A program made the position numbers and the translations under genes. Below are positions 1-38,422 of a DNA stretch of 64,000 nucleotides, piece by piece. The notes under the pieces are model-generated. The model did not search any database. It was not told the origin of the DNA and saw only the letters and a program-made list of their open reading frames with translations. The stretch is from Cloeon dipterum. Its lineage: Eukaryota; Arthropoda; Insecta; Ephemeroptera; Baetidae. Position 1 is the stretch's first letter. The number at the start of each line of letters is the position of its first letter. The stretch lies in the NCBI RefSeq assembly GCF_949628265.1, contig NC_088786.1, forward strand, positions 16,058,001 through 16,122,000, in the 5' to 3' direction.

Positions 1-2760
1 TTTTGGCAACTGGTCCCAACCTGGAAACGCCGTTTTAAATTTTAATAATTCTAATCATCACACAAAGTTGCCAAAAAATAGTGAAAAGCTGTTAAAAATC
101 AATCAACTTAAAATTACCTTAAAATATGCACAGCGATTTTCAAGATTGGCATGAGAAAGTAGGGTTTTGACCCAGAGGCAATTGCGGAGTGAAATGCTAT
201 GCATGTTTGTCCTTCAGCAACACCATTCAGTTGAGCCCTAAGAGCTAAAAGCAAGACTGCAACAAGATAGGCCGGCAACTGAGGTGCGTAGAATCTGACT
301 AACTGGCCCAGGATCATCGCTGGCGATGGCTCAATTCTGAAAAATCCCAAATTATTCGTAAACTTCAATCATAAACATAACTATTACTTGATATTGTAAG
401 TACAAGCAGGGTCGAGCTGCAGCGTTACATGAGCAATTTCAGTTTTTTCGATTCCATTGGGACGGAGTAGGTGCAGTTTGAGCGGGAGACTCTGAGAAAC
501 TGATGAGCTGCAAAAATCTCCATTTTTCTCTTATGTCTTTTTAATATGTATTTAAGTTTACGTCACAAAGGCGTGAGAATCTTCTGTACTCCAATCTGTA
601 GCTAGAGTGGCCACTGCGTGATGATTTTGAGCGGCGCAGTTCGCTTCAAATACCAGATTCGCGGCGTGCCAAGCTTTTTCCAAGGTTGGCAATTGCAGCT
701 GATAGTACAGAGCGCCAACCGATGTCACTTCCACGACATCCACAGGGCTTCTTGAATATATCGAGGGAAGTGAGTTCACTTGCAAAATCCTTTCTTGCCT
801 TGAAAACACGTCGATATTGAGTACCACCTGTAAATATGTTAAACCATTGTTATCAGAAATCAAGTGGATTTATTATTCAACTGTTCTTTTTGAACGTTTG
901 GCTTTCTTTTTTGACCTCTGCAAGTCAGGATAATTCATTAGGCATCTTCAAATGTACATAAGATAGTTTACCTCATTGCTGGAGGGAGGAACTCTGACAA
1001 CCACATGACTAAAACCTTGTTTCTTCAGTGAATGAAGGTTGAATGTGACACTTTTGCGTCGCTTCATGAGGGAAGGTACAAATTTTGTAAAGTTCGACAA
1101 ATTCATTCCAGTCTCGCTAAAAAAGGGAACAAAAATTGTACTGTCTGTCTCACTATAAGGCTACTGCTTCACTAACCACATGCGGACGTGCTTGTAAACC
1201 AAGTCAGCATTACAACCGTAAACCCAATCGCGCCTTTCAATTCCGATAGCTTCAATAGATACAAATTCGTGTTTGAGATCATTTGGCACTATCCTAACCA
1301 TGATGTACACAGGTTTCTTCAAATGGGTTTCCTTCACTGTGAATTGCCGACGCAAGTATTCTCGCCACTCGCCTTCTTTGTCAAAATCGGCGTTTGACGG
1401 GTAGAATGCTGATACTACCCGTTTGCCAAAATTACGCTGAAAATAATTAACAATAATTGTTACTTAGGACACAAAAGAGTTTCCCTTGCATTACATTTAA
1501 TAGGTGGTAGCTGAAGGCCTCATACATAATCTGTGGGTCATTTGAGAGAAGTTTTGTCTTTGAGTCAACCGAGTCAAACAAAGCTCTAGCAAGTGAGAGC
1601 ACAAGTTGTTTGCACCACAGAATGCACAGGTGGTCAGCAGACACCCAAACGGCTGGCACAGCTGTACTCTGAAATTATGCAAAATATTAAAAGATTAAAA
1701 GCTACTAAATTAATGGCACACTGTGCCTTATTATCATCAGTTAGTATAAACATTAAAATTAAATTTTTTATTCTTGCTATCATATTTAAAAATGAGTTAA
1801 AACTACCAATGTCGAAATATTTCCTTGAAGTGTGAGTCCTGATCTAACAAGTAGATCCCTGTGGCCACCGCCGACAGAAACCAACAATCTGTTGGAATCC
1901 CCTACTTCCCAGAAAGTGTTGACCTTCTGATAGTAGGAGGCAACATAGGGGTCCAGCATCATCACTGGACTCGCGTGAGGGGTAGCCAAAGTGAGGACAG
2001 TGTTGACTGAACCAGGCACAAAAGTGGGCTCCAAGAACACGCCTTTTGCTACCATACCACCCTGCACAGAGAGGGATTATGATATCAATGCTCTTTCAAA
2101 ATTTGAAGCCCTCTTACCATTGAATGTCCAAAGAGAAGCACTGACTGAGGAACATTTCTGTTTTTCGCGTAGAGCGATAATATTCGGTTGATGCAGATTG
2201 ATATAAAACGAGTTTGTTCTGATAAAACTCCGCCGAATAGTGCTGAATGCTCTTCATTGAGGTCTGCTGTAAAGAAGTTGAAGTGGAAGGGACTTCGACT
2301 GTCCCTGGCCTTGCGAAGAGCGACAGATGCCAAAGAGCGCACTGAAATTAGGATTATATGTATGTTAGATAAATGCGCGAAATCAGCGCAAGAGATTTTT
2401 AATTTACCTTGTTTGTACGAGCCACTATTGCCCGGCACGAATAAGACAGGAATGCCATTGAATTGCATGTTCCTGAGTTTTTCGGTGTACTGTCCCTCTC
2501 CGTAAGCATAAAGGCCATACTTTGGATACTCTTTAGTGTCGTTCTCAGACAATGCGATTTTCTGCAACATTCAGAAATCAAATGGTTTCAACACGAAATA
2601 TCACCGGCTCAACGCAACTCACCACATATTGAGGATATTCAAACATGTACGTCATTTCGCATGAGTTTTCCTCATGAGCGGTTAAATAATTGTGAATACC
2701 CAGAACAAAAAATGCAAATATTACGCCAGAAAAAGCGACAAATAAGTTAAATGCTGCCAT
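1..2760 (-). CDS. PGAP1: GPI inositol-deacylase PGAP1 (partial, 3' end beyond the window)
   Basis: Removes the inositol-linked acyl chain from GPI anchors in the ER membrane. Exons read in transcription order: 2760-2623, 2561-2408, 2341-2118, 2061-1807, 1668-1495, 1436-1177, 1116-972, 827-562, 507-388 and 336-118. All joins keep frame and give about 651 residues. A further piece at 20-1 is possible but weak. The start ATG precedes a membrane segment (residues about 4-26), as expected for this ER protein. The lipase motif LFGHSMGGMVA crosses the exon 3/4 junction with the nucleophile Ser near residue 171. The stretches ATPHASPVM, DHLCILWCKQL and VRSGLTL match the family as I know it. Vertebrate PGAP1 is about 920 residues, so the C-terminal membrane region lies to the left of the window. 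Introns are about 60-150 bases. No break was seen. Confidence 0.92.
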
Positions 2761-11400: not shown

Positions 11401-14400
11401 AACTGCCTTAGAAAGCACAGAGGCGTGCGACGCAGTCATTAGCATTGAGCGCGCCTGATTGAGAGCTATAAGTGATATTGTTAGATATTGTTTTATTATT
11501 AAAATGGGTCCAATAAATCGCACAGCTCGATTTGAGTGCTCTCCAATGGACTCCAGCGAGTTTTATTGGTGCTGTCGATCGCATGATTTGTGGTCTGGTC
11601 TGCATTAAAGAGCGAGCGTGTCAAGGGTGAGTGTTTTAATTACAAGTGACATTCTTCTTTACGCCGTGTGCCCACAAATGGGAAATAATAATTTCGAGTG
11701 CAAGCCAGCGGTGGCATGTGCAATTAGTTTAGATGCTTTGCTTTAGACGTTTTGCTTTAATTAATTTTCTTTTTTTATATTTCCGATAAGCATTCGCGAT
11801 AATATTTTAATGGGAACTGTGGAGAAAGAAATTAAATTTCATTCCCATCTTTATCTTTGTTGATCCAAACAAATCGAACAAATCATATATTAAAGTCTTC
11901 ATATTTCTCGAGTTTAATCATAAAAAATGGAAGCAATGCAGGAGACCGCAGAGATCTCAAGTTTACATCAGCCGCATGCATCAAGATGTTTTTGTATGAT
12001 TTGCGTCAGACCGAAATTCCACAAGATGCTGGAACTCAACCCTTTGATTTACAGTGGATCCGCTTGGTTTCCTTCCACTCACATTCCTTTAGTCATTCTG
12101 AGTCCTCTTGTCTCGTTTTAAATTCTGGTTTCTTGCAAGACCGCGTGCCATAATATCAGGTTGTTATTACGCTAATTTCGAATCAGCTGCATCCACAGTG
12201 CCACTGCCGTTTTCAATTTTACGGCAGTTGCAATCTCATTTTATTATAAAAGTTACTGACCAAACACCGACAATTTAATGGCCACTAATGACTAAATTTG
12301 AAGCAACATGGAAACTTGCATCGTAAAAGTATGCTCAGATATATCTCAGTGCACATCTCTGGTAATTGCACACAGCAAGTAAAAGAAAAAACCGATCGAG
12401 CGGCCGACAAATGCGTTGTCTCAGCGTGGTAAATCAATTTAATTTACAAACATCTTGTCGGCTGCGTCAATCCCTCTTGTATCGCGTCTGCAAAATGATG
12501 ACGAATTGTTTCGACGCCTGTGTGCAGCGTCGATTATCGTGTTTTGTTCGGCGGCGGAAAATAATTGCCTTGCACAACACTGCTGCCTGTTGGAGCAGCT
12601 CATTAGCCGCGGCATTAAAGGGTTGGCAGAGAAGAGTGCCGGGTGGGCGAAATGTCGCATCCTCCCTGCTGCTCGGACGGCCACTCGCCGCGATCGAGTG
12701 TCGTAATCGACGCCGCTTTTGCCAACACGTAATAAATGTGGAGCGGCCGCGTGTGCTGTGGCGAGCGACTTAATTTCAGACGCAGCCAAACAACGACTTA
12801 ATGTGATATTCATGTGAGCTAGCCACCGCCGCCGCCTCGCTCGCATTCGCTGCTGTTGGCCAACCGAGAGTGCACCACTTTTACATTTTATTGGTGAACG
12901 GTTTTCGGGTTATCGGGCGAAAAACGGCGCCGCACGGTCGCTCAGGGGAATTTTGGCATGCCGCAGAGACGCTTTTGTCACCTTTGCCGAGAGTTAATTG
13001 AGGCATTACCTCAGCCACGCGAAATGGGTTCAAGTGCGCGAATGAAGCATTGCCAAAACGGCAAAAGGTGAATGGAAAATGAGAACGGAATTGCATAATA
13101 AAAAGCTGCATTGGATGGGCTTTAAAGCGAGCAGGCATTTTCATTGAAAATCCATGCAAAGTAATTGCACAAGCGCAGCAGTCATCCGAGAGACGACATT
13201 TTTCCTTTCCAATTTGCATACTAAAAGGTTTAAATAATATACAAAAAAAAAAAAAACAATCCTGCTCAGCAGCACCGAACACAGCTTGTTTTCACATAAC
13301 GTAGACAACGATCGTTTTCTTCCTTAAATTCTGCGCCGTAAAATGCTCACGCAAAAATGTTATTAGTAATAAGCGTGTTGTAATATGATAATTTTATCTG
13401 TCGCCTGTCCGCCGTATTACAGACGCGGCCGACATGCTATAATTAAAATGCAAATTTCCAATTATTTTTCGAATGAGCCGTGTAGAAGCGGCGTCTCGAA
13501 TTTGCGATTGTATGCGTGCCGCGCATCCTGTATATTTAAAATTCCGTGATGCAGAATCCGGGAAAATGTTGTTTGCTTTTATGATCTCGGGCAGCAACAA
13601 GGAAAGGCAAAGGCAATTACTGTAATTGTCAAGATTAATGGCATTGACGCGGAGATGCTCATCCCGACGGCCAAAGTCGAACGAAAATCGTTCGTCCGCG
13701 GCAAAACTTTGGGACTTTCATTTTTAGCTCGTGCTCTTCATAAAAGATCGAAAATTTTGTCATATCTGATGGTTATCATCAGAGAAGTAGAAAATGACGG
13801 CGCGCGCCCAAGCGTCGGCGATTGCGACGAAAGTGAACGTGATTTCCTACGCCGCTTTGGAGGAAATGAGTTCGTGGGTGCGTGAGATGGCATTCGTGTT
13901 GGACACGTCTCTCGGACGGTCACTTTCCCTCTGACCCACGCTGCTCTCAGGAAGCTAATTGCTAGAGCACAATGTCGAATTGGCTCTAAAACGAACTCAC
14001 AGACTCGCAATTAAAAATGCCGACCACTCGTCGTGAAACAAATAATCATGTCACTTCCTGGCTCGCAAAACAAAGTTAACCGAAGCATATTTCAAAATTT
14101 ATGCGACACTTTTTGCATTTAGAACAAAACGAATGAATTTTCAGGAAGAGTCGGTGTTGCAATAGCAGCAAATAGACATTCTTTCTGGCGTCATTAACAT
14201 AATCAAATAATGCATAATGAATTAACAATGGACACTATGGAATGAATACCGCACCAAAAGTGACACACTTCAGTGTTGTGATTGATCAGTCCGTGCTTGA
14301 ATTTGAATCAAGAAGAATGTTATTCAGGCCTCATTCAGTTTTCATTCTTCTTGCATTTTCCAGTTCGCATTTCTGAGAACCACGATTGGACTTTCATTCT

Positions 14401-15853: not shown

Positions 15854-18800
15854 ATGAGGACGACTTCTATTTTGGTGAGCACTTGTTTCTCATTGTTAAT
15901 TATTTTGCTCCTTTATAAATTGAAATAATCTAATAACGACTGTCTTCTGCCTTTAAATTTTTATTTTTGTTTAAACCAACACCAACAACAAGAAGAGTAC
16001 TTAATTTATTCTATATTTAAAGCGTCGGGGTTTCTCGTGGTTGTTTTGTTTTGTCTGCAGAGTTTACACAAACAATTATCTACAATTAGCTGCTTTTAAA
16101 TTTACACTGCAGATCAATTTCGCTCTGTCTGCTAAGCGGCAAACAGGTTTCGCCGGCAAAGGTGTCTTTTTATTCGATCCTCGTTTTTACATTTGAATTC
16201 CGGCGTCTGCACGCTCGACCAGAACAAAGCCTTTCGGAGTTTTAATTGCAGATAACCATCTCCGATTTCGGTTGCAATTTACGAGCGCTTTGTTTCATTT
16301 CCCGGCTCCACAGAGCACACGTACGCAGACGCTTAATGCTTGAAAGCCGATGATTGATGGCGCTAGAGCGCACGGATTAAAAAGGTTCTACCCATAATTC
16401 TTTCACCTGCAGCAAAGTGCTCCACCCTGTTGCGCGTATAAAATCGAATTCAAGGCAGTCCACTCATCAAGGGGAAAAGAGAACTCTATTAAGAGTTCCT
16501 TGCACGTTTCAAAATGAGATTTTCGTATTTCCTTCTCGGCACATTTTGGCTCGGAATTTTAGGAGGAAGCCGTCATTCTCGTTCGGGCCAGAGCGAACAG
16601 AAAATTAATGTAGATTACGCGCGCGCCTCACAACAGCAAAAGTGATGCAGCAGCTTATTGTCTGTCAGCAGAGGTGTATACCGTTGTATTTAGCAGCAAA
16701 TTAGCTCATTTCATGGCCACTCCAGGTCATTCAATGGAGACACGCGGCAATCCTCTGTTTCATTCTTCTCGCGGTGACACTGCCTTGGCGGTGGCGGAAA
16801 TAAATCAGAGTCAATCTCCAGATCGAGATGTTTGTTTTTCAAGGGGAAAGAGTTATTTATTGTTTTCTAATCAATCACATACAAAAAAGGAAAGTAGATA
16901 ATAATAAGGTATATATATTTAAAAAAAATATAATTTGGTCGGTTCATTAACTGAAATCTCCTCCTGGACAATATCTAATTTCAAATTTTGAAATTTATTT
17001 TGAGCATTCCTGTGGAAATCGACCAATTTTTGGCGAAGCGTTTTTTTTTAGAATGATATATTTCCTTTTGAAATATCGAGTTTACAAATGATACAAAATA
17101 ATGGCATTTTAGCGATCAAATTAGAAAGATATTTGGTGACAGATAATTTTTCAATTCAGTCGGAAATTATTCAAACTTTGTTTAAAAATTGGAGGACATA
17201 CAAAAAGTATATTATACATTGCAAAACTTCGATAAAAATATTTATCCTAAATCAACAAAATTAAAATTTCTCCTTTGAATGTAATAGTAATTTTAGGTTA
17301 CGGTGATTTCTTTTTGCCTTCCAACCCTTCCAAGAACTTTTAATGCAGTTGCACATTTTACTAGTCGGTTGGTGTGTTGACGAGTTGTTCAAGCCAGTAT
17401 TGCTTTCAATGTTTTTGGGTGGTAAAATGCGGTTTGCTGGGTAGTAACCGCAGTAGTAACGAGAGACACCCGGGTATGTGAAGGACGATGAAACAGGATT
17501 CAAAGTATTTGGTCAGCTGGGATGCTGTGGAAAACTTGAATGCTGTATAAATACACGGCACTCAAAGAGGCATTATATTTTACTCTCGCGGCGGTGGCGG
17601 CGCATTCTTTGGTTACTCCAGCGCAGAAAGAAGTAAAAACGTGCCTCATATTTTTTTCTCGTAAACTTCGTTGCGTGCTGCCAGATTGCGCAATTAATTT
17701 TGGCGAGTGTAAAATTGCAGACGTGTCGGGCTGGGCTCTTATCGCACCAAGCCGCTTAAATTCGAGCTGTCGCCAGCTTTTCCTGAAATATCACACGCGC
17801 GTTTCGATTCTGGGCAGGCGTTTGAATCGCGCACTCCAGTGGAACAGAAACCAAAACGCGCGTATTACATAAACGACACGGTTGGCACTTTAATGAGGCG
17901 CCGCCGGACCTCTGCCAAGTGAAGGTGTACTGGCTTTCTGATAAGGAAACAAATAGAACACGCAGTTGCATAAGTTTGGCCCAGTCTAGTGCGAAGCTGG
18001 ACGCGAAAGTGTCACAAAACCAAGTGACTAATGCGACTTATTTGCCAAAATTTTAAATAGGCCGTTTTCGCGAAGCGATGCGTTTCGAGCACTTGGATAA
18101 TAAATTCTCGAAGCATATGACGGATGATTATGCGACATGGCAATGCACCAAAAAATGCATAGACGCTCCTTTGACGGGGGGAATACCATATGGAAATGCG
18201 ATTGAACCTGAGTTTTTTCACGCTCTAAATAAAGCCGTAACATTTTACAACTCTTTCCCACTCCCTCGGTCGTGGGTTATTGACAGAGGAGAAGGTTTAT
18301 TCGAATTCACAGCTTGTATTCTGCACGTTGCTTAATTTTCCTTACAAAAGTTGTCAATTTCAACACGTTGTTTTACGTTGTTTGCCCGTTATTAGTGGCA
18401 TTTTCCAAGCAGAATTTTGTATTAACATAATAAAACAATGCATCGCAGGTGACGTACGTACGCAGGACTCATTTTACAAAATGTTCGCAGGCATGTGCCA
18501 TTGTCGCCGCGGTGCTCATTTCGGATGCAGCGCACGCCAGACCTTCTCCTGAGGCTGCCCTATCTGGCGGATACAGGTGAGATTTAAGTTCACCCATCAC
18601 CGTGGGCTTGAACTCCATTAAACTCGAACATCAACACACCAGTTCAAACCAAAATCATTTATGCTATGTGCGCATGGTGAGAGAATGAATGCTGAGTAGG
18701 TCTGTGATGGTTCGAATGGGGCACGAGGTCGCTGCTCTTTTAATGACTATATCGACTCTTTCACGCAAACACAACTTATTTGGAATTTATTTCCACTTTT

Positions 18801-20589
18801 TATTTTTCATTTTGGACTTATTTCACACATTTGGTGGCATGGACACACAGTTTTAATAATTTTTTGCTTTTTATCAAATTATGGCTGGGAATTGGTTTGG
18901 AATTAATTTTTAAAAGTTTGGAATTTGAATTTAAACCAACATAACTATTAACTACCATAAATGAGTGACAAATAAAGCGGGGCAATTTGTATTGAAAATT
19001 ATGTTGTTTCCACGACAATGACTATTTGCACCATACTTAAGAGAAAAATTAGTTCACGCACCGCACACCGACGCTCAGCACACGTTTCTATCTACGCCTA
19101 CCCTCTTAGGTAAGACTCTCCAAAGATGGAAAAGCGACCTCGAGTGATGTGAGATATGCTTGGAGGTGACTTCTGCACCGACTCGCTGACGTTAAAACCT
19201 CCTATAAATTGCAGCTACAACCCTCCAAGTGGCCCGCGTCTCAACTACCTGCCCCAGAGGCGGGCCCCTGAATACCGAGCCAAGGCAGCCGAAGTCACCA
19301 TCGAGCGTGTTCCCATGCGTCTGGTCCACCAGAGCATCGAGCAGCACCACCGCCCGCACTACCACATCCACCCCAGCGGCCCGGCGCGCCGAGGCCCCTT
19401 CAGCTTCCCCACGGGCCGCCACTATGAGCCAAACCAGCGCTTCCTCTTCCCCTCGGCCGCGGCGTCGCAGCAGATCCAGCGCAACAACGACGTGTTCCCC
19501 AGAAACAACCAGCACTTCGCTCAGCTGAGGATCGACTCCGAGATGAGGCCCCCTGCGCACTCCACCCCGTCCTACGGCTACAACTATGACCGGCCAGCCG
19601 TTACCCTGACCACGACCACCAGCACCACCACCGAGGCCGCCCCAGTGTCGACGACCACTGCCGAGGCGACGACAGAGGTACCCGAGCACGAGAAGCCGCG
19701 CATCACTATCGCCATCAGCAAGTCCACCGTCATCCACACCGGCAAGGGCAGCTATGAGATCGACGAGAAGACCGGCAAGCCGAAGCCGATCGTGGCCGAG
19801 GCGCACAGCTTCGCCATCGACGACCCCGCCGGCACCAACAAGTCGGAGCCGACCGACCACCTGGCCGGCGAGGGCACCGGAAACTTCCCCGTCATCACCA
19901 GAGGCACGCCGCCGCAGGACGAGGAGCCCATAACCGAGAGCGACGAGCCCATCAGCGAGGAGCCAGCGACGACCACCGAAAACGCCGAAGCCGACGCCAC
20001 CACCCCCAGCCCCGCGGCGCCGCCGACCGACGCGTCTCCCTACTCGACCTCGTGGCCGCCCGTGGGGCAGCACTCCTACTCGGTGATCGCCCCCGGCCAG
20101 GCGCAATTCGTGTCCCTGGGACACGTCGACCCCGGGGTCGTCGCCCTGTCGCAGAACAATTTGGTTCCGGCCTACATCCAGCCCGAAATCGCGCACCCGA
20201 CCTACAGCAGCGCCTACCACCCGTTCGCCCCTGCAGCTACCTTCTACTACCAGCCCCTGTTCGGGCCGTACACCAACCTGATTGAGTACGCGCCTCCCCA
20301 GGAACTATGCAAGGTCGCCGAGCCGGTGGGCAAAGCCGCTGTTGAGGCGCCCGCGCTGGTCAAGGCGAATAGACTAGTCATCACCAAGGGTGGCATCGCT
20401 ATCGCGGGTCCCGGCGGCTTCGCTGACTCCGGAGAGGGTGGCACCTCCATCGTTGGCCCTGGCGGCACCGCTTACTCCAGTCCGAACGGCGTTTCTGTTG
20501 TCGGTCCCGGTGGCAAGGTGGTGCACCAGGCGGACGGCACGGAAAGAATCCTCGCTAAAGGCCCCATCGTGTACTACCACCACGCCTAA
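15854..20589 (+). CDS. Secreted GPGG-repeat (DUF4774-like) Thr/Pro-rich protein
   Basis: Three exons: 15854-15874 (MRTTSIL, donor GTGAGC), 18491-18576 (after TTCGCAG; ends in phase 2 at AG/GTGAGA) and 19215-20589 (after AAATTGCAG). They give 493 residues. Exons 1 and 2 encode a signal peptide (MRTTSILACAIVAAVLISDA...) and a short Pro/Gly leader. Exon 3 carries a basic His/Pro/Arg-rich part, a Thr-rich mucin-like stretch (TLTTTTSTTTEA, about residues 150-175), an acidic Pro/Thr linker and a Tyr/Pro region (YSSAYHPFAPAATFYY). The C-terminal domain (about 422-493) repeats GxxIxGPGGxA three times (IAIAGPGG, TSIVGPGG, VSVVGPGG). This resembles the insect domain of unknown function DUF4774 as I remember it; an HMM search was not possible. 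It is probably a cuticle or epithelial matrix protein. Exons 1 and 2 may also serve the two 3' exons at 22505 and 23802. Confidence 0.82.
15875..18490 (+). other. First intron of the GPGG gene
   Basis: Starts GTGAGC and ends TTCGCAG. About 2.6 kb, with no coding exon, RNA or repeat recognised inside. Confidence 0.6.
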
Positions 20590-20735
20590 AGTTGTTAACC
20601 AACACATTAACAGACTTGTTGGTGATTCAACCTATTTTGTTTTTACTGCGGCATCTTGCTTATTGTTAGTTAATTAATTATATAGCTCTCTGCGAGAATG
20701 TTGAATTTGTTACCGTTTTTAAATAATTATGTAAC

Positions 20736-20741
20736 AATAAA
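20736..20741 (+). terminator. Polyadenylation signal AATAAA after the first GPGG gene
   Basis: AATAAA 147 bases after the stop at 20589. It marks exon 19215-20589 as a terminal exon. Confidence 0.6.
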
Positions 20742-22504
20742 TTGTTAATTTATATAATGGAAAATTGGCAAAACCCTTGTATTTCTTTTTTTATTTTCTT
20801 TTGTCTTAATGAGATGAAGTCCGTGCCCTTTCGCAGTGCCTTTTTTCTTTAGATGTTATTTAAGTCTAATTTGTTTTATTTTTAACATTTCTTCGATTTC
20901 TTCTTTAAAATAATATGCGTTTTAATAAATAACATGCTCTGCCAATTTGCCACAGTTAAAACTAACAATTCATCGTTGCAGTCACATTTTCAGAAATTGC
21001 ATTTTTCACAAAAACCGTCAGGAATTCTCTCGCGGGTGTCAAATTTCTGTCACACAGCACAGGAGCAAGCTGCCTCATAAATTTTAAGTTTTATCTGCGT
21101 GAATACCCGTGCCTTTTCCAAGAAATACCGTCACATTTTATATCATAATCCCCAAGCAACAGCATTTGACTAAGTTATTTTACATCAACTCAACTCTTGT
21201 AAATCTGTACATTTTATCAGATCGCAATTTAAAAAGTTTTAACGCTCGAACGCCCCTTCATTATGAAACATTTTATTACTCAGTGCAACAAAGAGCCCTT
21301 CATTTCACATTTGCATGTCTTAGTCGCCTCGATTACCAGCAAAAACTTGCCGAGCATGTTAATGCAAACACAACATCTCCCCGTGATCTTGATACAGGAT
21401 GGTTCACATTAATCTCTTGAGGCGATCCGAGCATTTGAGATCTTTTAATTTGAAGTGACGCCGCCAGTTTTGAGCTGGCTGCATCATTAATCAAGCGTTC
21501 TTCACTTTAGTAGCTTGACTCTTGCGCGTTTACAAACGAGAGTTGCAAATGAACAAAATATATTTTATGCGTATCTGTATACATACACTAATTAAAATAA
21601 CTGTTCTCCAGAGTAGGAAATTGATGGATATAATTTTATCATGTGATCATTGTATATTTTATCATTAGCATGTAATGCAGTTGAGGAAACTCGCAATAAA
21701 AGAGTAAAATTTATGTAGTGATTTATTTGCCAATTCCATCGATTTGTCTCTCTGCGCTGCCAACGAATGTGAGACAATCGCGTCGTTGCGCAAAATAAAT
21801 GCGTGTTTGAGCATTTGAATCGATCATTTACATACGAGAAGAGACTCTTCCTTTTTAATCAATGTAGCGAACGTAGCAAATATAACGCATTTTACATCGC
21901 ATCAGCGCATATTATGTGTAATTTTCAGTAAAACAAAATCATCCTCCTTTGAACCATTAATTGATTTCCTTTAGCAGAGAATAACATGAGAAAATCAGGT
22001 GAATAATACTTCAATATTTTATATATAATTAACTGTCCAATTATTGTGTTGCATTTGCTTAGTTGTAAGCACAGCTTCATGTCTCAAAACATTTCATTTC
22101 ATTTTACGAGTTGCCATGTTTGTAAATCATTATGATAATTTCAAACGACACTTGGCACCACTCGCAGGAAAATATCACTGATTCAATAGCACGTAATCAC
22201 AAATAATAATATAAATGACGTATCTTAAATCGTTTGAAGTGTATAAATTGAAAGTTAAACACTGGACATATATTTTTTATTTTTCAGATTGAGTGCACGA
22301 GCTGCAAGATACCATTGCATAATTGTCTTGGAATGCAAAAAGTAGAAAATTTAAAGTAGAAGTAACATACATTGCTTGTCGCATGATGATCTAGTTTGTA
22401 GACCTTGGCATTCTTGGTGTTGAATGCGTTTAACCCGTCCACTGCCTGCCCATTATACCCTCCCTGACTGACCTCCACTGAACGCAGTTTTGATCCCCGT
22501 ATAG
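20742..22504. other. AT-rich stretch before the PYGALK exon
   Basis: I searched for an ATG exon ending in phase 2, or a hydrophobic leader exon, that could start the next coding exon, and found none convincing. A strong pyrimidine tract and AG at about 22264-22287 leads into frames with no useful donor. This absence is the main reason to suspect sharing of the upstream leader exons. Confidence 0.45.
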
Positions 22505-23189
22505 ATCCGACGCCGCGGTGCAAGCGCCCTCATCCAAACTCAGCAGGCCGCAGCACCGCGAAGCCGACCAGGAATTGGTCGAAAACGACGAAGATTCAAA
22601 GCCCTATGGCGCCCTCAAGAAGGCCCCCAAGCCGGAAAAGTTGGAAAACGAAGCGCCGGACGATGACGAGCTGGAAGTCGCGCAGGGCAGCCAGGAAAGC
22701 GAGGGTGACTTGGAGCCCTACGGGGCCCTGAAGCAGAAGAAAGAAATGGAAGCCTCTCTGCAGCCATACGGCGCACTGAAAATCGCAGTGGCGGAGGAGC
22801 CCTGGGGTGCCCTCAAGGTGTCCATCGCCATCGCCGAGAGGGAGAGGAAAGAGTCGGAGCGGCTGCTCGTCGACCGGCAGAGCATCGAAATCGCCGCCAC
22901 CCCCGAACCGGACACGGACGTCGTCAACGTGGAGGCCCCCAAGGAAGACAGCTCGAAGGAGGCCGAAGCCAGGGCGCCGACCACCCTCGTGCTCAGGCCG
23001 TACGCCAAGGCAGTGGCCGGGGCGGGAGGAACGGCCATCGCGGCCCCCCAGTCGCTGGCGGTCACCTCCAACCCCGGCGACGTGGTTATATTCGAGCCGG
23101 AAACCATCGCCCTGGCTGGCCCCGGGGGCAGGGCGGTGGCGAAAGCAACCTTGATCATCGAGTCTGAGCCCAACTATAAGCTCAATTAA
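22505..23189 (+). CDS. 3' terminal exon of a secreted protein with PYGALK repeats and a GPGG region
   Basis: An open frame of about 227 codons begins after the acceptor CCCCGTATAG and ends in TAA. Its phase needs two bases from an upstream exon. No Met occurs before about residue 75 of the frame, so the start must lie in another exon. The N-terminal half is acidic and carries PYGALK three times and PWGALK once (22602-22619, 22716-22733, 22764-22781, 22800-22817). A charged linker follows. The C-terminal part has IALAGPGG and the related AVAGAGGTAIA, like the neighbouring GPGG proteins. AATAAA at 23385 supports a terminal exon. It could splice from the leader exon ending at 18576 (same phase) or from an exon I did not find. 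Base composition and frame quality argue strongly that it is coding. Confidence 0.75.
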
Positions 23190-23384
23190 ATTTCGGCACC
23201 CTGCGCATATTATGCTCGTCGCGACCAAATACGAATTACACTGCTGATGATGATTATGATAATGTTGAGTGAATGATGAATGTGATTATAATATTTTCCG
23301 CCCTGAGATGGAATGTCTATCCCTTGAGTAGTTGAACCGGTTTTCACACCTTGGTTGTCGTGAATAGCGCTCGTGTATTTTAAA

Positions 23385-23390
23385 AATAAA
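23385..23390 (+). terminator. Polyadenylation signal AATAAA after the PYGALK exon
   Basis: About 195 bases after the stop at 23189. Confidence 0.55.
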
Positions 23391-23452
23391 ATATCTGCTA
23401 CGCCTCACCTTTCAGAATTGTATCACGCGTGTCTGTTTTGTTTGCACTTCAT

Positions 23453-23467
23453 CACACACACACACAC
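23453..23467. repeat. (CA)n microsatellite
   Basis: About seven and a half CA units in intergenic DNA. Confidence 0.9.
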
Positions 23468-23801
23468 TTGCTGCAGCTAATGTTTCGCTTTATTTTTTTC
23501 GCTTACTAACCTCTCCACGTAGCCAAAACAATTTTTTGGTTTTCCAGCTGATCACTTTGCCCAGTGCAGAGTTAGTCAAGGAGAGGACACTCGACTTTTT
23601 AATATTCTTTTCCTCCGTCATTGTTTGGCAATAAAAACTCGGAGCCTCGCTCCCCACAAGGTCACCTTGCATTAATATAAATCGCTGCTGTAATTTAAAA
23701 GACCGTAGGGAGGCTCACAACTCATCCACGTTTAGCACAAATAAAAGCATATAAAAACCCAGTAACAGCAATAAACTGAAAACTCGTGTCAAAATCTACA
23801 G

Positions 23802-24228
23802 AGGCGGCCGCCAGTACTTCTACTACCCACTCACCGTCTCGAGCGCGCCTGTGGGCCAACCAATCTTCTTGTACCCCGCAGAGCCACCTCAGGGAGGCCA
23901 GCAGCCGCCCGGCGAGGACCTTGAGTCGACCGAGATCCGCCCGCCGCCCCCGGGGGCCTCCGTGGCCGAGGCACAGCCCGTAGGGATCGCCATCGCGGGG
24001 CCCGGCGGCGTGGCCTCCGCCCAGCCCATCGGCCAAGCTATCGTGGGCCCCGGCGGGCTGGCCATCGCCCGTCCCATCGGCACCGCCGTGGCCGGCGTGC
24101 CTGGTGTCAGCGGCGTCCCCGGCTCCTCCGGCGGCCCGCCCACCATCGAGGCCGAGGAGCCGCCCAAGATCACCATCTACTACACGCCGGGACTGCACCC
24201 CTACTACGTGCTGGGCAGCCGCCACTGA
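23802..24228 (+). CDS. 3' terminal exon of a secreted Gly/Pro-rich GPGG-repeat protein
   Basis: The frame opens after the acceptor AAATCTACAG, with one base completing a split codon, and runs about 141 codons to TGA. It contains no Met at all, so it cannot be a stand-alone gene. It starts with a Tyr-rich part (RQYFYYPL), then an acidic Pro linker, then three tandem units around QPIGxAIVGPGGLA, then a Gly/Pro/Ser stretch and a Tyr-rich tail (ITIYYTPGLHPYYVLGSRH). The GPGG block is closely similar to that encoded across exons 4 and 5 of the gene at 28659-38422. The phase matches the leader exon at 18491-18576. An alternative acceptor two bases further on would need a different phase. Confidence 0.72.
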
Positions 24229-28658: not shown

Positions 28659-31600
28659 ATGATCACCACCTCGTCAACCGTGAGTCGAATTTCATTTACC
28701 TTTTATATCAGAATCAATTAATTTTAAATATCTGCCGCTTGAGTGCTTTGTGAAGATATTTTCCACCGCACTAATAATTTATATTTTTCTCTCGTTCTTG
28801 ACAGCATGATAAGCGTGTTTGTCAGGTGATATAATATTTCTTGCGTATTATATTCTATATATATTACTCGGTTTACCTTCAATTTGCATAATGGAGATTT
28901 TAGCGCCTTCAGATAAAAAATATTTATTTCTTCATTACCGGACTCCTCGTCTCTACACTAAAGGCATTCATTACAAATTATCATTTCGTGTCCTTCAATG
29001 ACCGATTGATAAGTAAACTCACTTGCGGATGATTGCGCACAAGAGAGGAAGAGGAAACAATCCGCGAGGGTGACGAGAAGAAGCTGCTCGCGAACAATTA
29101 CAAATCGAATTCCCACACTCGCGAGCGACGTTACATAATTAATCCGTCGATCCGATGTGCGGACAAGGCCCTTTTTCGCATGTTTTTGCCAAGATGCGAC
29201 CGAAAAGAGGCTCGTTGAAATTCATAAAAATAAACACAGCCTTGCTTGGTTTGCGCGTTGATATCTCCATTCACATCATGTTTTCGTCATGGTCACTGTC
29301 ACTGGTGCGGCGGGCGCATGACTCACAGCGGGCCCTCCGCAGCAGTCAGCACGCACAACGCACACAGACCAATCGAAGCGATCCGATCCGCCGGGTTTTG
29401 GATTTTGTTTGTGGGCGGAAAGACGATTTATTCACGCTGCCGTTTTTCATACTAAGCCGTCCTTGGATTCGTCCGGCGCGCAGAGGTGATCAAACCTTCG
29501 GCGCAATTGAATGTTTTGTGCGATTTGGAGAATCCACTTCATGGCTCGCAGGGTTCGTTTTTTTTCCTTTGAACCGCGTCTTTCGCGTGCCTAATTTTGA
29601 CACCATATTCAATTATACTCGCGAGAAACATTTCACACGCGAAATAATCGACATTCTTCAATAATTCGTTTGTTTTTTCAATTATCCGTGTTTAGCAGCA
29701 ATAAAGAGAAATTTCGCTGCCACTTTGAAAGATTTTTAATTGAGCAATTAGTAGAGTGCAGGTTTCACCCATCATCAATTTTACGCCCGCTTCTCACCAA
29801 ATCATGGCACGACGTGAACAAGTACGCTCGCTAAAAAATGTTTTGTTACTCCGGTTGCCAGGCTTTTCGATTTTTTACTGCTGAAAACAAAGCAAAATTG
29901 ATAACTTGTTTCATATATACAATTTAAGCACAGCCGACCATTACTACCGCATCGACGATCTTGACCGCGTTTGAAAGTAATATGAAGAGGATGAAGCGTC
30001 TTTAATTGAATGCCACAGGGGAACAATGAGATGACTTGAAAATTTTAGTTCATCAACTTTTTACTTGAAAGTCCTTTGGGCTACAGCTGGCAACATCAAA
30101 ATTTTTATTTTCAATTAAAATCCAGTTTTTTTGTAAGGTACACAGACACAGCTTTCATTTAATTATTTGCAAGCAAAAAAATCATTGGATTTTTAGCTTT
30201 GATATTACTTATCAACAATGCTGATTTATTTAAATCAGAAATCTTGTTATTTTGCTTTTTAAATTTAAATAAATCATCAACGCGTATAAAAATGAATGTA
30301 TTTTCGAAATTTAAACTGGTTGTTTTGCTTTACACCGATAAATTTAGAAAAGCTCTGAGCAGTTATTAATTTAAATACCTACCTGCAGAGGTTTGAAATT
30401 ACAAAACATTTCAATTACCAATTTATGCGTAAAGAGGCCTGACAGCTATCGCATATAGCAGACAAAATACCGTACTTGAAGAGTGCCCTGAAGTCTTCTG
30501 CGAATTCCGACTAAAATTTAAAGCATGTGTGGATGCTCCGTTGGTCGTTTTTTATTTGATAGCGCAGCTGCGCGGCGAATTAAGCAGGTCTTTGGTGACG
30601 GGAGGGTGCGGCGGCGGCAGCGGCGGCCGATTTGTACCTCATCCCGTAGCACGTGCTCTGCTGGCTCAATCTATCACCGGAGGCGATTGCGAGTGTGTAT
30701 AGCTCCGCTCGCGAGCGCGAGAGCAGTATGTGTGTAGCGGGTGAACAACCTGCAGCCCCGCCCTGCGAAATTCAGCATCTAGATGGACAGCGAGCGAATG
30801 AGTTCCGTAAAACACACACAAAACGCTCTTCCATTCCATGGGCATGAATTATCATCGTTGTTTGTGTCCCTGCTCAATAATTAAAATCTACTGGCCAACC
30901 TGCAATCAAGATTTTATAAACACTTCACGCGCCGCGGTTTTATTAGATCAGGCCGGTCTTTTTTAATTAAATATTAGCTTGCCCCGACAATGCGAGCAGA
31001 GAACGAGCGTCTAATTAAGTGCACCGTTAAGTGCATCTTGGGCTATTTTCTGCATGAAACGTGCGCAATATATATAAAATACCGAGGTGGCGCACGTTCA
31101 TGCAGCTGTTTATTTCAAGTTTGAAGTCAAACACCTGTGAGTGTGTGTATGTGCATATCAACTTTTCGAACCCTTTCCGTGCGGGAAGATGATTTACGTC
31201 GCGCAACAAAGAGCGTATTTTTCTCGCGGCGGCCTATTCACTTGATTGCAATGGCAAATTATTGAACTGTTATATTCAAAACGCCCACAGCAACAGGAAA
31301 ATGTGTATGAAAGAAAATTACACGCTGTTCTCTTATTAGATTAATCACGTGATTATAATAGAGGATAGCGCTACTATGTTCGCTATAAATATTAATGCCC
31401 TATTTGCTCACGTAGCCTTGTTTTATAAATTATTCAAAGACTTTATTGAATATTTAAATTTTAAGTAACCATGAGGAAAATGCAAGAATAATTAAGATTT
31501 TTTTATAAAATATTTGGAATTCCGTTTAATTCCGCGAATCAAAAGTGCTGCAGGGAAAGACGCAAAATTATCAAAATTATAGCCCACCTTGGCTCTACCA

Positions 31601-34600
31601 CGAAACAAATTACAAGCCTATTAAGCCTGATCTAATTAGCATAATTCGAAGCGCTGTGCGTTGAAGAAATTGAGCTATTACAACTTGTTAAGAGCAATAT
31701 TTACGCATTGTCTTTAACGCTTCGCCTGAGCTTCCATTTATAATTTGCAATTTCATGAGTCACTGCGACCGTATAGAGATGCGGTGAACTCTGCTGGCCA
31801 GGATGCTTTAACAGGAACAAAATTTTGGAGTCTATATTTGCAGAAGTGTTTCGTAACTCTTAGAATCTCTCGAGCAAGCTCAAACAAACTCGCATACCTC
31901 TCTCGTCTTTATTTGCATAAGTCGGCTCCAAAAAGTGGATTCCAACACGCGCGTGCGTTTTATTTCTATTTCTTTTGGTTAATTTCAAAGATCAACTGCT
32001 TTGCATACTTTTAAACTAAAAGCACTTTCGGTCTGACGGATAGATGCGAACAGTTGATCTTGGGCGGAGGTCACTGACTGGCAATCGAGGGCTTGGCCTG
32101 TTTTAGCTTGGCAGGATTTAAATCAATAACCATAAATTTCGCGAAGCCAAGTGCGGAGAAGATAGAAATTGGGCCTCAGCCTGTGTTGACATGGCGAAAT
32201 CGAGTCCATATAAGGCTGAGCAGAGAACACCCCCGAGGTCAACGCCCCTATGATATATAACAAGAGGTTTATTGCTTTAAGAGCCATAAAATGGGTTTAC
32301 AGATTAAACACAGTTGTAGTTTGCTCTGCACAAATCGCCAATGGGAATATGCTATAGGAAGACGCAAAATAATTACACATTGTAAATCACCGAGTTAAAT
32401 CACTCGGCGCACACACACGATGTGATGAATTACCGTACAAGCATAACTTACGATTATAACTGTTATTTAACATGCAGCGTCTTGCAGGATCAAAAGTGAA
32501 TAATTAGTCGTATGCTAATTGCTTCCCTCTTTGCAGATCTTGGTGGCTCTGGCGCTGTGCAGCGCCCTCGCGTCCAGCGCTCCCCAAAACTTCTACTACT
32601 TCCAACCACCCTTCAACAACCAACATCAGCAGCACCAGCAGCAGCAGTACCAATACCCCCAACCCTACCAGCAGTACCAACACCAACCCCAGTACAGTCA
32701 GCGACAGCAGCAGCAGTTCTTCGGCGGACAGGCGGCACCCTTCCCCTTCCCCTACCAGGGCGGATACCCTGCGCCTGCAAGGTAGGAAGCGCATTTTATC
32801 CTTTGAAAATATCAATAAATCGCAAATATTTTTATTTATTTTTCATCTCTAATTTAAACCAAATTACATTGTTAAGAAGATTAACAAATCAATTACTATA
32901 TGAGGAGTGGAAGTTATTTATATTTGTCAAATAAAATTTGCTGTTCAAAATATGCATGAATTGCGCAGGTTTTCAAAACTTAATTGCAAATATGATATAA
33001 ACTATCAAAGCATTAATTCAATTTGCGATATGGCAGTCGTCAAAACAATTTATAAGTGTTTTGAATTGTCAATAAAGTCAGTGCAATAGTATTTTTATAA
33101 TATCAAACTTATTTTTTATCAAACAGTTTTTTAGACTTTATTTAACACTTTGCTTTTAAAATGTATTAGCTCTAAAGAACGAGAAAATAGTAAATTTAAT
33201 TTTAACTCATTCTTTGTCGTGTTTGGTTTCCAGTGCGAAATTTAAAAGTTTTGCGTGAGCGAGTTGCATAGTTAAATTTGGTTGTTGGTTTTTAACCTTC
33301 CCCTTCACCTTTGCAGACCACAACTGTTACTCATAGAGCATTAAGAAATACTGTATTTGATAACTTTAAGATCCCAAATAGAAGCTATTTTCCCTAACTG
33401 TTGCAACAACTACCATATATTATATCACAACGAAACCAAATGAAAAAGGAACTGTCGTAATGGATCTCAAGCAGTTGTTTTTTCGTCTTAAAAATATATC
33501 AATTTCCTAATTATAGTTATAAAGGCTACTCATTAAAAAGTTTGCACAATTAAAGGGTACATTATTTCAACTGTTCGCATCGCAAGAATCCGCAAGTTCA
33601 TTAAAGCAGACTCAAACAGCGCTGGATTAAGTTAAAAATTCCAGGCAGTTGCGCAGGAAATTTATGTAATATACTAATGAATTCAAAAAAGCCAATTATG
33701 AAATAATGCTATAAGATGTTTCAAGAATATGGGACTTGAATGATAATAACAATTCATTCCTGACAAAGTAACAGAGATATTACAAAAAATAGTTACACTT
33801 CAAGCACCGTTGGAATAGGACAATATTTCTCTAATGTCGAATATGCCATAATGAACGACAGATTCCCCGTATGAACACAATGGGGCAGCTTCTATCTCGA
33901 CACATGCATCTGCGCTCTAATGACGATTGAGTTCAAACGTTTGAGTCGTCTCGACGCGCGCGCGGTGAACATTTATTTATTGCATAATAGAGCGCGAGCG
34001 CACACTAGAAATTCCGTTCGTGGCGCGATTTTTTCCCAAGTTTGGTAGCGTGAGATGCTGATGAGATTGAATCGCTGCCACGCCTATTGTCACGCCTATC
34101 GACTCATAAATTATTGAAATGAGATTGTGCAGCTGGACATGGGTGGCCAGCGCGGAGATCGAGCGTCTCGTGCTCATCAATTATTCAGCGGAATTCCGCG
34201 GCGCTGAGCAAAAAGAGGACTACAAAGGGACTTTCCGCGCATTTCACCTGCAGCCAAAACAGAGAGCTTGCATAGTTTATTTATGAGCGCGTTGTTCTAG
34301 TTGATTAGCGCGGGCCTGGCTCGACCATGTGAAGGAAAAAAATAATATTAAACCGCGTTTACAAGCCGCGCAGATTACACGCTTTGTTTCTCGGCCCTTT
34401 TGTTTGTTTGACGATCTCCGCCGCAAATGGCTTTTCTTTTACCACACAGGTTTTTGTTTTTCATTTTGTTCATGGGAGAGCAAGTTTTATATCTTCCTCA
34501 CTTTCGCGAACAAAAAATATATAAAACTAATGAAAATTAACCATGGCTTTGTGTTTTTTTGGCTGCGAATAGTGAAAAATCGAAAATATTATTCTCTTAC

Positions 34601-37600
34601 TGGAGCAGCAGTTGCAGCTCCTCTAGCAAATTATTTTTAAGGATATTAAATTATAAAATTATTGTTTTGGAATCATCAAAAATTGCAAGCTTATTTTGAC
34701 CAACAAGAAAAACACTGGAATTTTCGTCAGCTTTGAAAAGATGTTCGACGATTTATCTCTTCAAAAACTGTCCCATCGATTGAACAAAAAATAATTTTTA
34801 AATCAATTTCGAACTATTCTTAAACCAAAATCGCTAAAATAGTAGAATCAAAAAAGTTTGACTATCGAAAAACCAAAAATAGTATTTTAGATTCATTTAT
34901 ACCTTGGTTAATACATATTACATTCCCGACCGTTGCGTACTCTTTTTTCTGGTTTATTCTGAAATTTTCTGTTTTAGAAAAAAATATAAAGGAATATTCA
35001 TTCTGGGGTAGATTCAATTAGGCTTCGAGAGCAATCATGGTTACCGTTACACCTATCAAACGCACTTAATTAAATCAATTTGAGCGCGCTTTCAGGGGCA
35101 AAAATGCAGTTTGCAATTTCCGAGCAGTGATTGTCGTCTCGTCTGCGCGCAGCTGATGGGCAATAAATCGAGTGAGCTCGCGGCTCAATTACTCGTCCCG
35201 TCGGCATCGTATGCAATAACTGAAATTGCTCCGTGGCCAATCGCTCGGCGAGCCCAAACAATGCTGCTCGGGAAAAGCGCAAAGAAAACGCGCGCGCGTT
35301 TATACAAATTGAATTTGCCCATCATCGGCGTGGCAGTCACGCTGCATTACGTTCACCACACACATTCAAATGCAATATCTCGCTCCCGTTAGCCTTGCAT
35401 TAATTACAAAAGAGTCGAATTCAGGTAGCAGACGTCACCGAAATGCAGCTGCATGGCGGAAGACGACAAATTAAGTGGAGGCTGGTCAGTGCGCAAGCAG
35501 CAGCTCTCTCGTCAGAAATTGAAAGCTGAAAAAGTGGTTACGCCGTTGCGTGTGACGCTGGAATATAATACACGGCTGCAAGGGCGACCGATTTATTTTG
35601 GACTCTGCAGCAGGCAGACTTGTTAGCCTTGCTTTGTATGCAGTGTCACCAATTGGAGAACATTCAATACTCGCTCGCTCACCAGCAAGAGAGCCTTGGT
35701 GAACGCGCGTTCCCTCTGCTCCAACTAAATGGGCGAACGTGATCTGAAAAAAATAATAGCTGATCTTTCTGTTCTCATCGATGGCCGGCGAAAACACAAT
35801 CCTTCGAACGTCATCTAGCACGCGGCCAAGCAGAAAAAATTCGGATGGTGTATATTGCTAATGCACGATTGGGTTTCGGACGCCTGCTCGCCGAGCCGAG
35901 CGAGGAGGTTCTAGGGTCAATGTATTTTCCTATGGACAAGAGTTGGCGATGAGAATGGAATACCAATTTGCACTCGCGTCATGGTGAAACAAATCGTCAA
36001 ATCTGCTCGCCACTCTCAGATATGGAGAACTGATATATGTTGCTTTTGTTTTTATATGCTGCTGCTCTCAATCAGCACAACTGCGTAACTGTCTGCTGCA
36101 ATTCACTTTGATGTATCCGTTTAGTATTTGGCAGGAGCCATCTAGAACTATTACTAAAATCACTGTCAGAAATGAAGAGCGGCAGACTGACATGATTTAT
36201 ATATTCACTCCCGATGAAGTAGCGGGATTATCTGCCAATTTGAAATGCCTTGATGCTCGAGAGCCAATCTCCTCTGACCTCGAAAGAGTCCAGAAGACAC
36301 ATTCTCATGATTAATAATTATTAGTGAAAAGCAGTTTCTAAATTAGATTTTAGATAGTAAAAATAGAAGTTCAAATCTGAAGTTAACAAACTTTTTCACT
36401 TGGTCCAGATATTAACTTACTAACGAGATGTGTCGAAGTTTCGAGATCATGGGAGTGGGGAGAATTTTAAATATTTGGCTGTTACAGCTCCAAAGGCAGT
36501 GCACTTGCAAACATTAAAACTGCAACAACCTCCAGATAATTTGGCCTTGAACAACCTGTTGAAAAAATTGTCTTGCTGGGAGCACAAAATAAAAAAATAA
36601 AATTATTCACTCTTGCTTGCGTTTACTAAATTATTCTAAGAACCGACAAATTTTATTAAGCGATTTAAATTTTAAAAGAGATAAATCTTGTTTCCAGAAT
36701 CACAAATTCATTTGAATTTTAAAATTTGCAGCTACAACCCGGCGTACAACTTCAACCCAGGATATAGCACCTCCTCAGTACAAAGCTACGGTCCTGTTCC
36801 GCCACACCAGTACTACTCGCCACCCCAGCAGCAACCGCAGTACGTCTTTGTGTACCCTGGCAACCCCTACCAGCCCTACCCTGGCACCCCTGCTGCACGA
36901 CCCCCGCCCGTGGACGACACCGGTGACGCCGAGGTGTTCAACACGCTAGGCAGCATGGAGCACACCGACCAAGACGTGTCCAACGAGCGCAGGGAGCCCC
37001 TGGCACCGGAAGTTGCTGTTTCCGGACCTGAGGTTGGACGGCGAGGAATGCCCGAAAAGAGCGTGGCGGCCAAGAAGCCCCAGAGAGTGCAGAAGTTGGT
37101 TGACCAGCCCAAAGCCGAGGTGGAGCAATCGGCCGAGGAGAAGGTGGACGATGATGTCGACACGATTGTTGTTGACGTAAGCTAATTTAATTGTTTTTAC
37201 CAAAAGATGCTAGGTGGAAATATGAAAATCCAAATTGGGAAAATTCTGCTTTTTTAAATTTCATTACATATTTTTACCTTGGACTGAGTTTAAACTTTTG
37301 ATCAATGAATAAGAAAAATGATTAATTCACCTGCCTGACTATGATTCCACTGACAATTTTAAGTCTGCTTTTATTTAGGAAATTTTTCTTCAAAAAAAAA
37401 AAAAAAAAAAAAAAAATCTTTAAAACTGTCCTGTCCTAAATATAATGACGATTTTCATTTCAGGTGGATGACACTGAATTCGACGGTGGATCCGACAAGA
37501 ATGACGACAAGAGCTGGCACCGGCGTCTGGCTCCGAGTCTACAGTCCGTATACGTGGAGGCCGATGACAACGGTCGCGCCGGGATCAAGGCGCCTACGGC

Positions 37601-38422
37601 TGGCAGCGGCGGGAGCGTGGTCGTCGGAGACGACGCCCATAGCGGCCCTTCGGTGGCCTCTGTGAAACCAGCGGCCATAGCCTTGGCCGGCCCTGGAGGA
37701 GTCGCCTCCGCAGCGCCAGTTGGTAAGTTGCTGAAACTGAATATCCGCTCGCACACTCGTCAAACGCCTGCTACTTGCAAAGCGGCAACCAGCTACGCTT
37801 TGAGGTTGCTCGGGTTGCATAGCTGAACCAGAACGTTAACGTTGAAATTCAAGGCAAAATGCAATGCAGCTACTTTCCAGTTATTTTACAGACAATTTGC
37901 AAGTTGCAAAAAAATTTAAAAAAATAAACAATAATTTTGAATGGCAGTTTCATAGAGCTTATAAAAATGATACTGTTATCTTGTTAGAACTATTGATGAA
38001 GGGTTTTTAAATATAATTAATATAGATCTGAATGCTATAAATTTATAAAATTGATTTTACTTAACAGAAAATTGAAATATAAATGTTCAGTAAATATTAA
38101 TTTTTCGAATATCCAAAATAGCAAATATTTAATTGTTTAATAGTCACAAAAGCTGTTAAGTTCTCAAGTCACAATTCATTGAAATTTAATCTTGTTTGCA
38201 GGTACAGCAGTGGTTGGACCCGGAGGTCTGGCTGTGGCGGCCCCCTCTGCCACCGCAGTGGCCGGCCCTACCAGCGGAGTTCCACCCGGTGTGCTCGGAG
38301 GCGCTGCTTCTGCCCGGTCCAACTTCCGTCTGCACCAGATGCTGGATAAAATGTACGCGGCCCCTGCACGGAGAGCAGCCTTTAGGTCGGCGGCCGCCTA
38401 CAACCTGCAGGACTTCTACTGA
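28659..38422 (+). CDS. Secreted Gln/Tyr/Pro-rich GPGG-repeat (DUF4774-like) protein
   Basis: Five exons join in frame: 28659-28679 (MITTSST, donor GTGAGT), 32537-32781, 36732-37176, 37464-37722 and 38202-38422, giving 396 residues. The signal peptide is completed by exon 2 (ILVALALCSALASS). The mature N-terminus is Gln/Tyr/Pro-rich (QYQYPQPYQQYQHQPQY). Exon 2 ends in phase 2, and exon 3 begins with Ser-Tyr-Asn-Pro, as does exon 3 of the gene at 15854. Exon 3 ends in an acidic Lys/Glu/Val-rich linker. The GPGG block is split by intron 4: IALAGPGG (about 311-316) and AVVGPGGLA (about 326-334). The tail contains RSNFRLHQMLDKMYA and ends in NLQDFY. Introns 1 and 2 are each nearly 4 kb, the last two a few hundred bases. 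Exon 1 was chosen because its size, phase and Thr/Ser-rich start match the paralog. It is likely a structural matrix or cuticle protein. Confidence 0.8.
28680..32536 (+). other. First intron of the second GPGG gene
   Basis: Begins GTGAGT and ends CTTTGCAG; 3.9 kb. It includes GC-rich patches near 29280-29560 and 30580-30790, and a TATAAGG motif at 32209-32215, but no exon I can support. Confidence 0.55.
32782..36731 (+). other. Second intron of the second GPGG gene
   Basis: Begins GTAGGA and ends AATTTGCAG; about 3.95 kb. A strong unused acceptor at 33316 opens a short in-frame tail (see findings). Nothing else is supported. Confidence 0.55.
37392..37416. repeat. Poly(A) run in intron 3 of the second GPGG gene
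   Basis: Twenty-five consecutive A bases a little upstream of the acceptor for the exon at 37464. It is a plain homopolymer with no sign of a retroposed element around it. Confidence 0.9.

Follow-up and report, generated by a model that had tools for sequence, protein, structure and literature searches.

Insect genes in which a constant 5′ part is joined to one of several alternative 3′ parts are known, and here we compare with them a locus of Cloeon dipterum (Ephemeroptera) that may follow the same plan. The locus lies in a window of 64,000 nucleotides (assembly GCF_949628265.1, contig NC_088786.1, forward-strand positions 16,058,001 to 16,122,000; all coordinates below are those of the window), in which a two-exon signal-peptide leader is followed on the same strand by three long coding exons, termed A, E and F, each encoding a DUF4774 domain. 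In Locusta migratoria, the neuroparsin gene is described as giving rise to five mRNAs with two coding exons in common and one specific exon each, whilst in the myosuppressin gene coding exon 1 is joined to either exon 2 or exon 3 (PMC4237046). This is the plan that we propose for A, E and F; however, going by the part of that paper relied on here, the locust genes encode related neuropeptide precursors with reported transcripts, whereas A, E and F are long, structural-looking bodies that have only DUF4774 in common and are known from sequence (PMC4237046). For beetle DH31, the excerpt of PMC6585902 used here describes an N-terminal part, including the signal-peptide exon, that is constant and C-terminal parts that differ by alternative splicing, although in this case the conserved peptide exon is shared as well and the alternative parts are short neuropeptides. 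PpSerpin-1 of Pteromalus puparum likewise combines a constant 5′ part with many alternative C-terminal exons, with two forms of the N terminus and 21 of the C terminus, but according to the relevant section of PMC10513286 the exchange affects just the end of a common serpin fold, whilst A, E and F would replace nearly the whole mature protein.

Two further systems differ in how the parts are joined or in which part varies. Drosophila mod(mdg4) is described as joining common 5′ exons to one of many alternative 3′ exons, but it does so in trans, the 3′ exons having promoters of their own (PMC12692577, in the part cited). In Rhyzopertha dominica, splicing has been proposed for gustatory-receptor array members that lack terminal exons and lie beside a member that has them: here, too, tandem exons occur together with constant exons, the same sequence rule was applied and no unassembled sequence lies between them, yet the arrangement is a mirror image, with variable N-terminal and shared C-terminal exons, and the products are receptors (PMC8956072, as far as the portion cited describes it). 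The shared-leader plan is therefore known in insects, and A, E and F would add to it a structural-looking, uncharacterised family; since the plan has been described for insect neuropeptide and serpin genes, such a locus would come as a moderate surprise. Within the open-access literature, we found no cuticle proteins with such splicing and no paper naming DUF4774, PF15999 or IPR031942, the last of which we take to be the InterPro number for DUF4774; the string IAGPGG was absent from five open-access papers matched on IAGPGG or "cuticle".

The leader exons and the three body exons

Leader exon 1 (15854–15874, plus strand) runs from the ATG to a donor of 2.7 bits, comprising 7 codons (MRTTSIL) and ending in phase 0. 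Leader exon 2 (18491–18576, plus strand) encodes the remainder of the signal peptide and ends in phase 2, leaving AG open, at a donor of 7.0 bits: this is the strongest of the four exon-2 donors in the genes A to D of the cluster (gene A being the leader plus exon A), with the other three at 4.7, 2.3 and 4.0 bits. Cleavage is predicted by our own signal-peptide score at MRTTSILACAIVAAVLISDAAHA/RPSPE, with 12 residues of leader exon 2 lying past the cleavage site. Body exon A (19215–20589, plus strand) is Thr-rich and is the leader's cognate: the junction reads S|YNPPSGP, is free of stops and has the same S|YNP residues at the phase-2 position as gene B. Body exon E (22505–23189, plus strand) carries four P[YW]GALK motifs, and body exon F (23802–24228, plus strand) is Gly/Pro-rich. 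All three match Pfam PF15999 (DUF4774) above the curated whole-protein cut-off of 25 bits, with 52.6 bits for A (3.9e-14), 49.0 bits for E (5.1e-13) and 54.0 bits for F (1.4e-14); Chitin_bind_4 was not matched in any of them in the Pfam search. When joined to the leader at 19215, 22505 or 23802, each reads in phase and remains open until its stop, at 20589, 23189 and 24228 respectively.

Most of what the first-pass annotation had read from this arrangement held on re-analysis: its coordinates for the two leader exons encoding a signal peptide and leaving AG open were correct, as was its description of three phase-compatible bodies that each end in a stop. It had also remarked that the second body lacks an early Met and the third any Met, and indeed the first Met of E is residue 81 of 227 and there is none in the 141 residues of F. 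An AATAAA follows each stop, as described, and in every case lies within 200 nt of it, starting 147 nt past the stop for A (20736), 196 nt for E (23385) and 135 nt for F (24363); since this hexamer occurs at 2.03 per kb in noncoding DNA (57 in 28,100 nt), each of these signals is only weakly informative. The GPGG repeats ascribed to all three bodies are present in A (3) and F (2), whilst for E the description is loose, with a single GPGG plus one GAGG. One of the E motifs, GDLEPYGALK (22713–22742), resembles by eye EEDLEYYGAAK (51400–51430) of a minus-strand Chitin_bind_4 protein.

Our best reading, to which we give somewhat better than an even chance, is that A, E and F serve as alternative terminal exons within a single gene, all on A's leader. 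A promoter upstream of 15854 would give rise to a pre-mRNA carrying the signal-peptide leader, the donor at 18576 would be joined in cis to 19215, 22505 or 23802, and the matching poly(A) signal (20736, 23385 or 24363) would be used. Each choice would place a different, nearly complete mature DUF4774 body on the same signal peptide, with three secreted proteins, perhaps cuticle-associated, as the outcome; the splicing, its regulation, the secretion of the E and F products and the cuticle role are what we infer. The introns starting from 18576 would measure 638 nt for A and, hypothetically, 3,928 nt for E and 5,225 nt for F, as compared to introns of 3,857 and 3,950 nt in gene B. The acceptors of A and E score 1.8 bits each, within the range of the cluster, and both have CTGAC branch-like motifs.

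Coding character of E and F

The codon tables used here derive from genes B, C and D and from two minus-strand genes, with A, E and F left out. With these tables, E scores 198–201 bits and F 188 bits in the frames set by the leader, in both cases the top of six frames, with the other frames reaching at most 79 bits for E and 85 bits for F. The best coding starts fall at 22506 for E and 23803 for F, with small margins over the adjacent codons (1.1 and 0.4 bits), and the same coding score places the start of A one codon early. The G+C content at third codon positions (GC3) is 0.81 for E and 0.88 for F. Pairwise comparison of the PYGALK copies of E places 23 of 26 base differences at third positions and shows 20 of 23 codon differences to be synonymous, although synonymous differences are favoured here because the copies were chosen by their amino acids; a looser search (3 of 6 residues) returned no copies beyond the four known. 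For F, comparison with gene B over 35 domain codons reveals 37 base differences, 24 of which affect third positions; 18 of the codon changes are synonymous and 9 are not. Within F, the two GPGG blocks differ at 4, 5 and 6 sites in codon positions 1, 2 and 3, giving 3 synonymous and 6 other changes and hence no synonymous excess. On balance, protein-level constraint has acted on both E and F, if perhaps only in the past, and they look like genuine, constrained coding exons.

A different boundary for F was also considered. The sole donor in E above 1.5 bits lies at 22705 (2.6 bits, phase 1) and fits only an inner acceptor at 23882; both splicing of E into F and a start of F at 23882 were rejected, because the F codons before 23882 themselves score as coding (+26.8 bits).

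The coding results bear directly on the possibility that E and F stem from old tandem duplicates, as body exons that lost their leaders and no longer give rise to secreted proteins, being either relics or untranslated read-through. The failure to find a leader for either exon (see below), the resemblance of F to gene B instead of A and the lack of a synonymous excess in F's GPGG blocks would all fit such an origin; however, the frames are intact, codon usage is strong with high GC3 in both exons, and a poly(A) signal follows each of them. The synonymous excess in the PYGALK copies and in the comparison of F with B also speaks against relics, but it attests to past and not necessarily to present constraint, and the PYGALK counts are pairwise and motif-selected. 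Taken together, we regard such relics or read-through as distinctly unlikely.

The search for other leaders

Leader exons were sought with a home-made scan in which the presence of an ATG was combined with scores for splice sites and for signal peptides, based on consensus values. Its six control genes (A to D and two minus-strand secreted genes) are the ones whose leaders were already visible. A first, stricter version returned nothing, A's own leader included, and the thresholds were loosened for this reason. The loosened scan recovers the signal-peptide exons of A, B, C and D at scores of 22.3 or more, and it finds nothing in 20590–22504, in 23190–23801 or in two control stretches. Still looser thresholds and any end phase also gave no leader before E or F, with three weak matches in one of six control stretches; with the thresholds nearly removed, the best candidates reach 5.5 ahead of E and 1.8 ahead of F. 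In a variant of the scan with an open second exon, every one of the six modelled secreted genes had its leader recovered, with scores of 15.4 to 22.1, and at the same thresholds none came up before E or F; upon relaxation this variant returns one of 6.8 before E. Over the whole window, every plus-strand entry with end phase 2 that scores at least 22.3 belongs to genes A to D, and the next entries are 16.1 (inside B) and 15.7 (a leader-like pair at 12331–12642). Hydrophobic open segments number 14 in the ~2.5 kb before E and F as compared to 88 in 29.9 kb of control sequence, and among those before E and F there are no good combinations of ATG and splice sites. Thus, an ATG and signal-peptide exons of their own are present for A, B, C and D, whilst the scan finds none for E and F; the loosened and open-variant scans in this way support the first-pass annotation, which had reported no leader exon between the three bodies.

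It is this failure to find leaders just before E and F, more than the match in phase, that leads us to favour alternative terminal exons on a shared leader, and on this evidence E and F most likely share the leader of A. Several observations nevertheless weigh against it, and the behaviour of the scan is the first of these: besides the failure of its strict version, chance scores elsewhere in the window reach 23.7 for end phase 1, and a candidate of the open variant in the first intron of D scores 18.1, which is above the 15.4 of A's real leader. The leader scan is without specificity by itself. The phase-2 junction is found in B, C and D as well, and hence in all four plus-strand genes modelled, each of which has its own leader; the phase match is weak evidence for sharing because any member of the cluster would show the same phase. 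At the level of splice sites, the acceptor of F, at −0.2 bits, is weaker than each of the 11 acceptors in A to D (0.6 to 6.4), and a CTRAY branch motif is missing within 60 nt of it (this is also true of 4 of the 8 A to D acceptors examined), whilst a competing AG lies 17 nt upstream of the acceptor of E. The domain of F is nearest not to A but to gene B, matching at 66% over 56 residues (E-value 1e-15, in a set of six proteins) as opposed to 47% over 34 residues for A. Finally, A's first intron contains a 43-codon open reading frame (ORF; 16514–16645, plus strand) that starts MRFSYFLLGTFWLGILGGS, resembles a signal peptide and is preceded by a TATA box (TATAAAA at 16437), with a score of 6.3 as a one-exon leader. 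The proposal in the first-pass annotation that one locus makes three secreted proteins is thus partly supported: it gains from the scans, which found no leader just before E or F with 6 of 6 controls recovered, and from the coding character of both exons, and it loses from the phase shared with B, C and D, the kinship of F to B and the weak leader-like ORF at 16514.

Should the leader of E and F come from elsewhere than A, this ORF is the most concrete candidate, and the two could then be separate genes or transcripts: either their leader is an unusual one missed by the scan, or the TATA-driven ORF is spliced over A's exon 2 and body. Such an origin would agree with the fact that every plus-strand gene modelled has its own leader, including B as the closest relative of F; in addition, the 16514 ORF has a signal-peptide-like start (2.46) and a phase-2 GT at 16642, ahead of its stop, TATA-like motifs lie at 23750 before F and at 22020 before E, and the pair at 12331–12642 is leader-like in score. 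However, the signal-peptide score of 2.46 compares with 3.6 to 4.5 for the A to D leaders, the donor at 16642 scores −1.0 bits when the weakest A to D donor has 1.7, and the leader score of 6.3 stands against 22.3 for that of A. Furthermore, a scan that recovers six of six secreted-gene leaders finds nothing just before E or F, a mere 612 nt separate the stop of E from F, and TATAWA motifs are common, with 96 on this strand. We therefore consider a separate leader unlikely, if still the alternative to be taken most seriously. As an observation in its own right, the interval 16437–16645, whose ORF has weak donors only, may harbour a small nested gene or an alternative leader, or may be a product of chance.

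The TATA-like sequence before F also has a bearing on trans joining, in which E and F would have promoters of their own and their transcripts would be spliced to a leader RNA originating at 15854. Drosophila mod(mdg4), with common exons and independently transcribed 3′ exons, provides a precedent (PMC12692577, in the part cited), and a TATAAAAA motif is located ~50 nt ahead of F. An RNA started from this TATA would, however, begin only ~20 nt ahead of the F acceptor, and motifs of this kind are frequent on the strand. Cis splicing suffices, since the leader, A, E and F lie in order on one strand, and trans joining appears very improbable to us. Assembly collapse or misjoin is a known risk where similar genes lie in tandem, and leaders of E and F could have been lost from the sequence in this manner; the window contains zero N, and we see hardly any chance that the assembly is the explanation.

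Neighbouring genes and the origin of E and F

The window is insect-like in its content, with introns, a Chitin_bind_4 gene and a PGAP1-like exon, and A to F fall within a plus-strand run of genes for secreted proteins. Genes A to D have a common layout, in which a phase-0 intron separates a tiny ATG exon from a signal-peptide exon and the latter is followed by a phase-2 intron; the tiny ATG exons of B, C and D comprise 7, 4 and 4 codons. Gene B (28659–38422, plus strand) has five exons, its own leader, the phase-2 S|YNP junction and a DUF4774 domain spread over two exons, one of which matches at 26.1 bits; it thus agrees with A in exon layout, junction phase and domain, and in contrast to E and F, for which none was found, it has a leader of its own, as do C and D. 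Two candidate first exons for the same signal-peptide exon were noted in gene B, at 28659–28679 (MITTSST) and 29278–29304 (MFSSWSLSL): the latter scores slightly higher, whilst MITTSST resembles the MRTTSIL of A by eye. Genes C (40180–41418, plus strand) and D (43664–48873, plus strand) have the layout of A and no DUF4774 match. Within the first intron of D, 44611–44668 has the appearance of a signal-peptide exon, CSISSCLIFILCMLEHYTHA, with fair splice sites and end phase 1, and could be an alternative leader exon or due to chance.

On the minus strand, an Ala/Tyr-rich secreted gene (8336–7700) has its signal peptide split by a phase-0 intron after 3 codons (MKV), and a Chitin_bind_4 cuticle protein gene (52865–50897) has the same split after 8 codons (MFRHALLL), with Chitin_bind_4 ("insect cuticle protein") present in its part at 50897–52474. 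An exon of a PGAP1-like gene (2085–2570, minus strand; Pfam PF07819, 1.3e-29) is situated beside the secreted-gene cluster. A leader-like pair on the minus strand at 118–2120, MLPAYLVAVLLLALRAQLNGVA, scores 21.5 for end phase 2 and may belong to another gene or be due to chance. Scanning the window for Rfam families and for tRNAs gave no matches. Pattern searches for relatives of F returned 593 matches in prokaryote contigs and 52 in viral contigs, none of which was confirmed, as is expected of an animal gene.

As for the origin of E and F, the likeness of F to B suggests that simple duplication of A's last exon was not the source. F and B are adjacent among the DUF4774 exons, and together with their similarity this is suggestive of an array that arose by gene duplication, with the leaders of E and F either lost or never kept. 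The likeness of F to B leaves room both for relics and for a separate leader, as weighed above.

If A, E and F are indeed alternative terminal exons on one leader, some members of a tandem series of secreted genes would have become a single gene with interchangeable mature parts: this would represent an intermediate between duplication of genes and alternative splicing, of which we found no description in this structural-looking family. Gene finders could then overlook or misassign the leaderless members of such arrays. There is also a small chance that the arrangement has a wider meaning, in that a single leader would act as a common secretion tag for dissimilar structural bodies through the choice of terminal exon, possibly including trans joining to leaderless exons that are transcribed independently; splicing, as opposed to a set of separate promoters, would then determine what an extracellular layer is made of.

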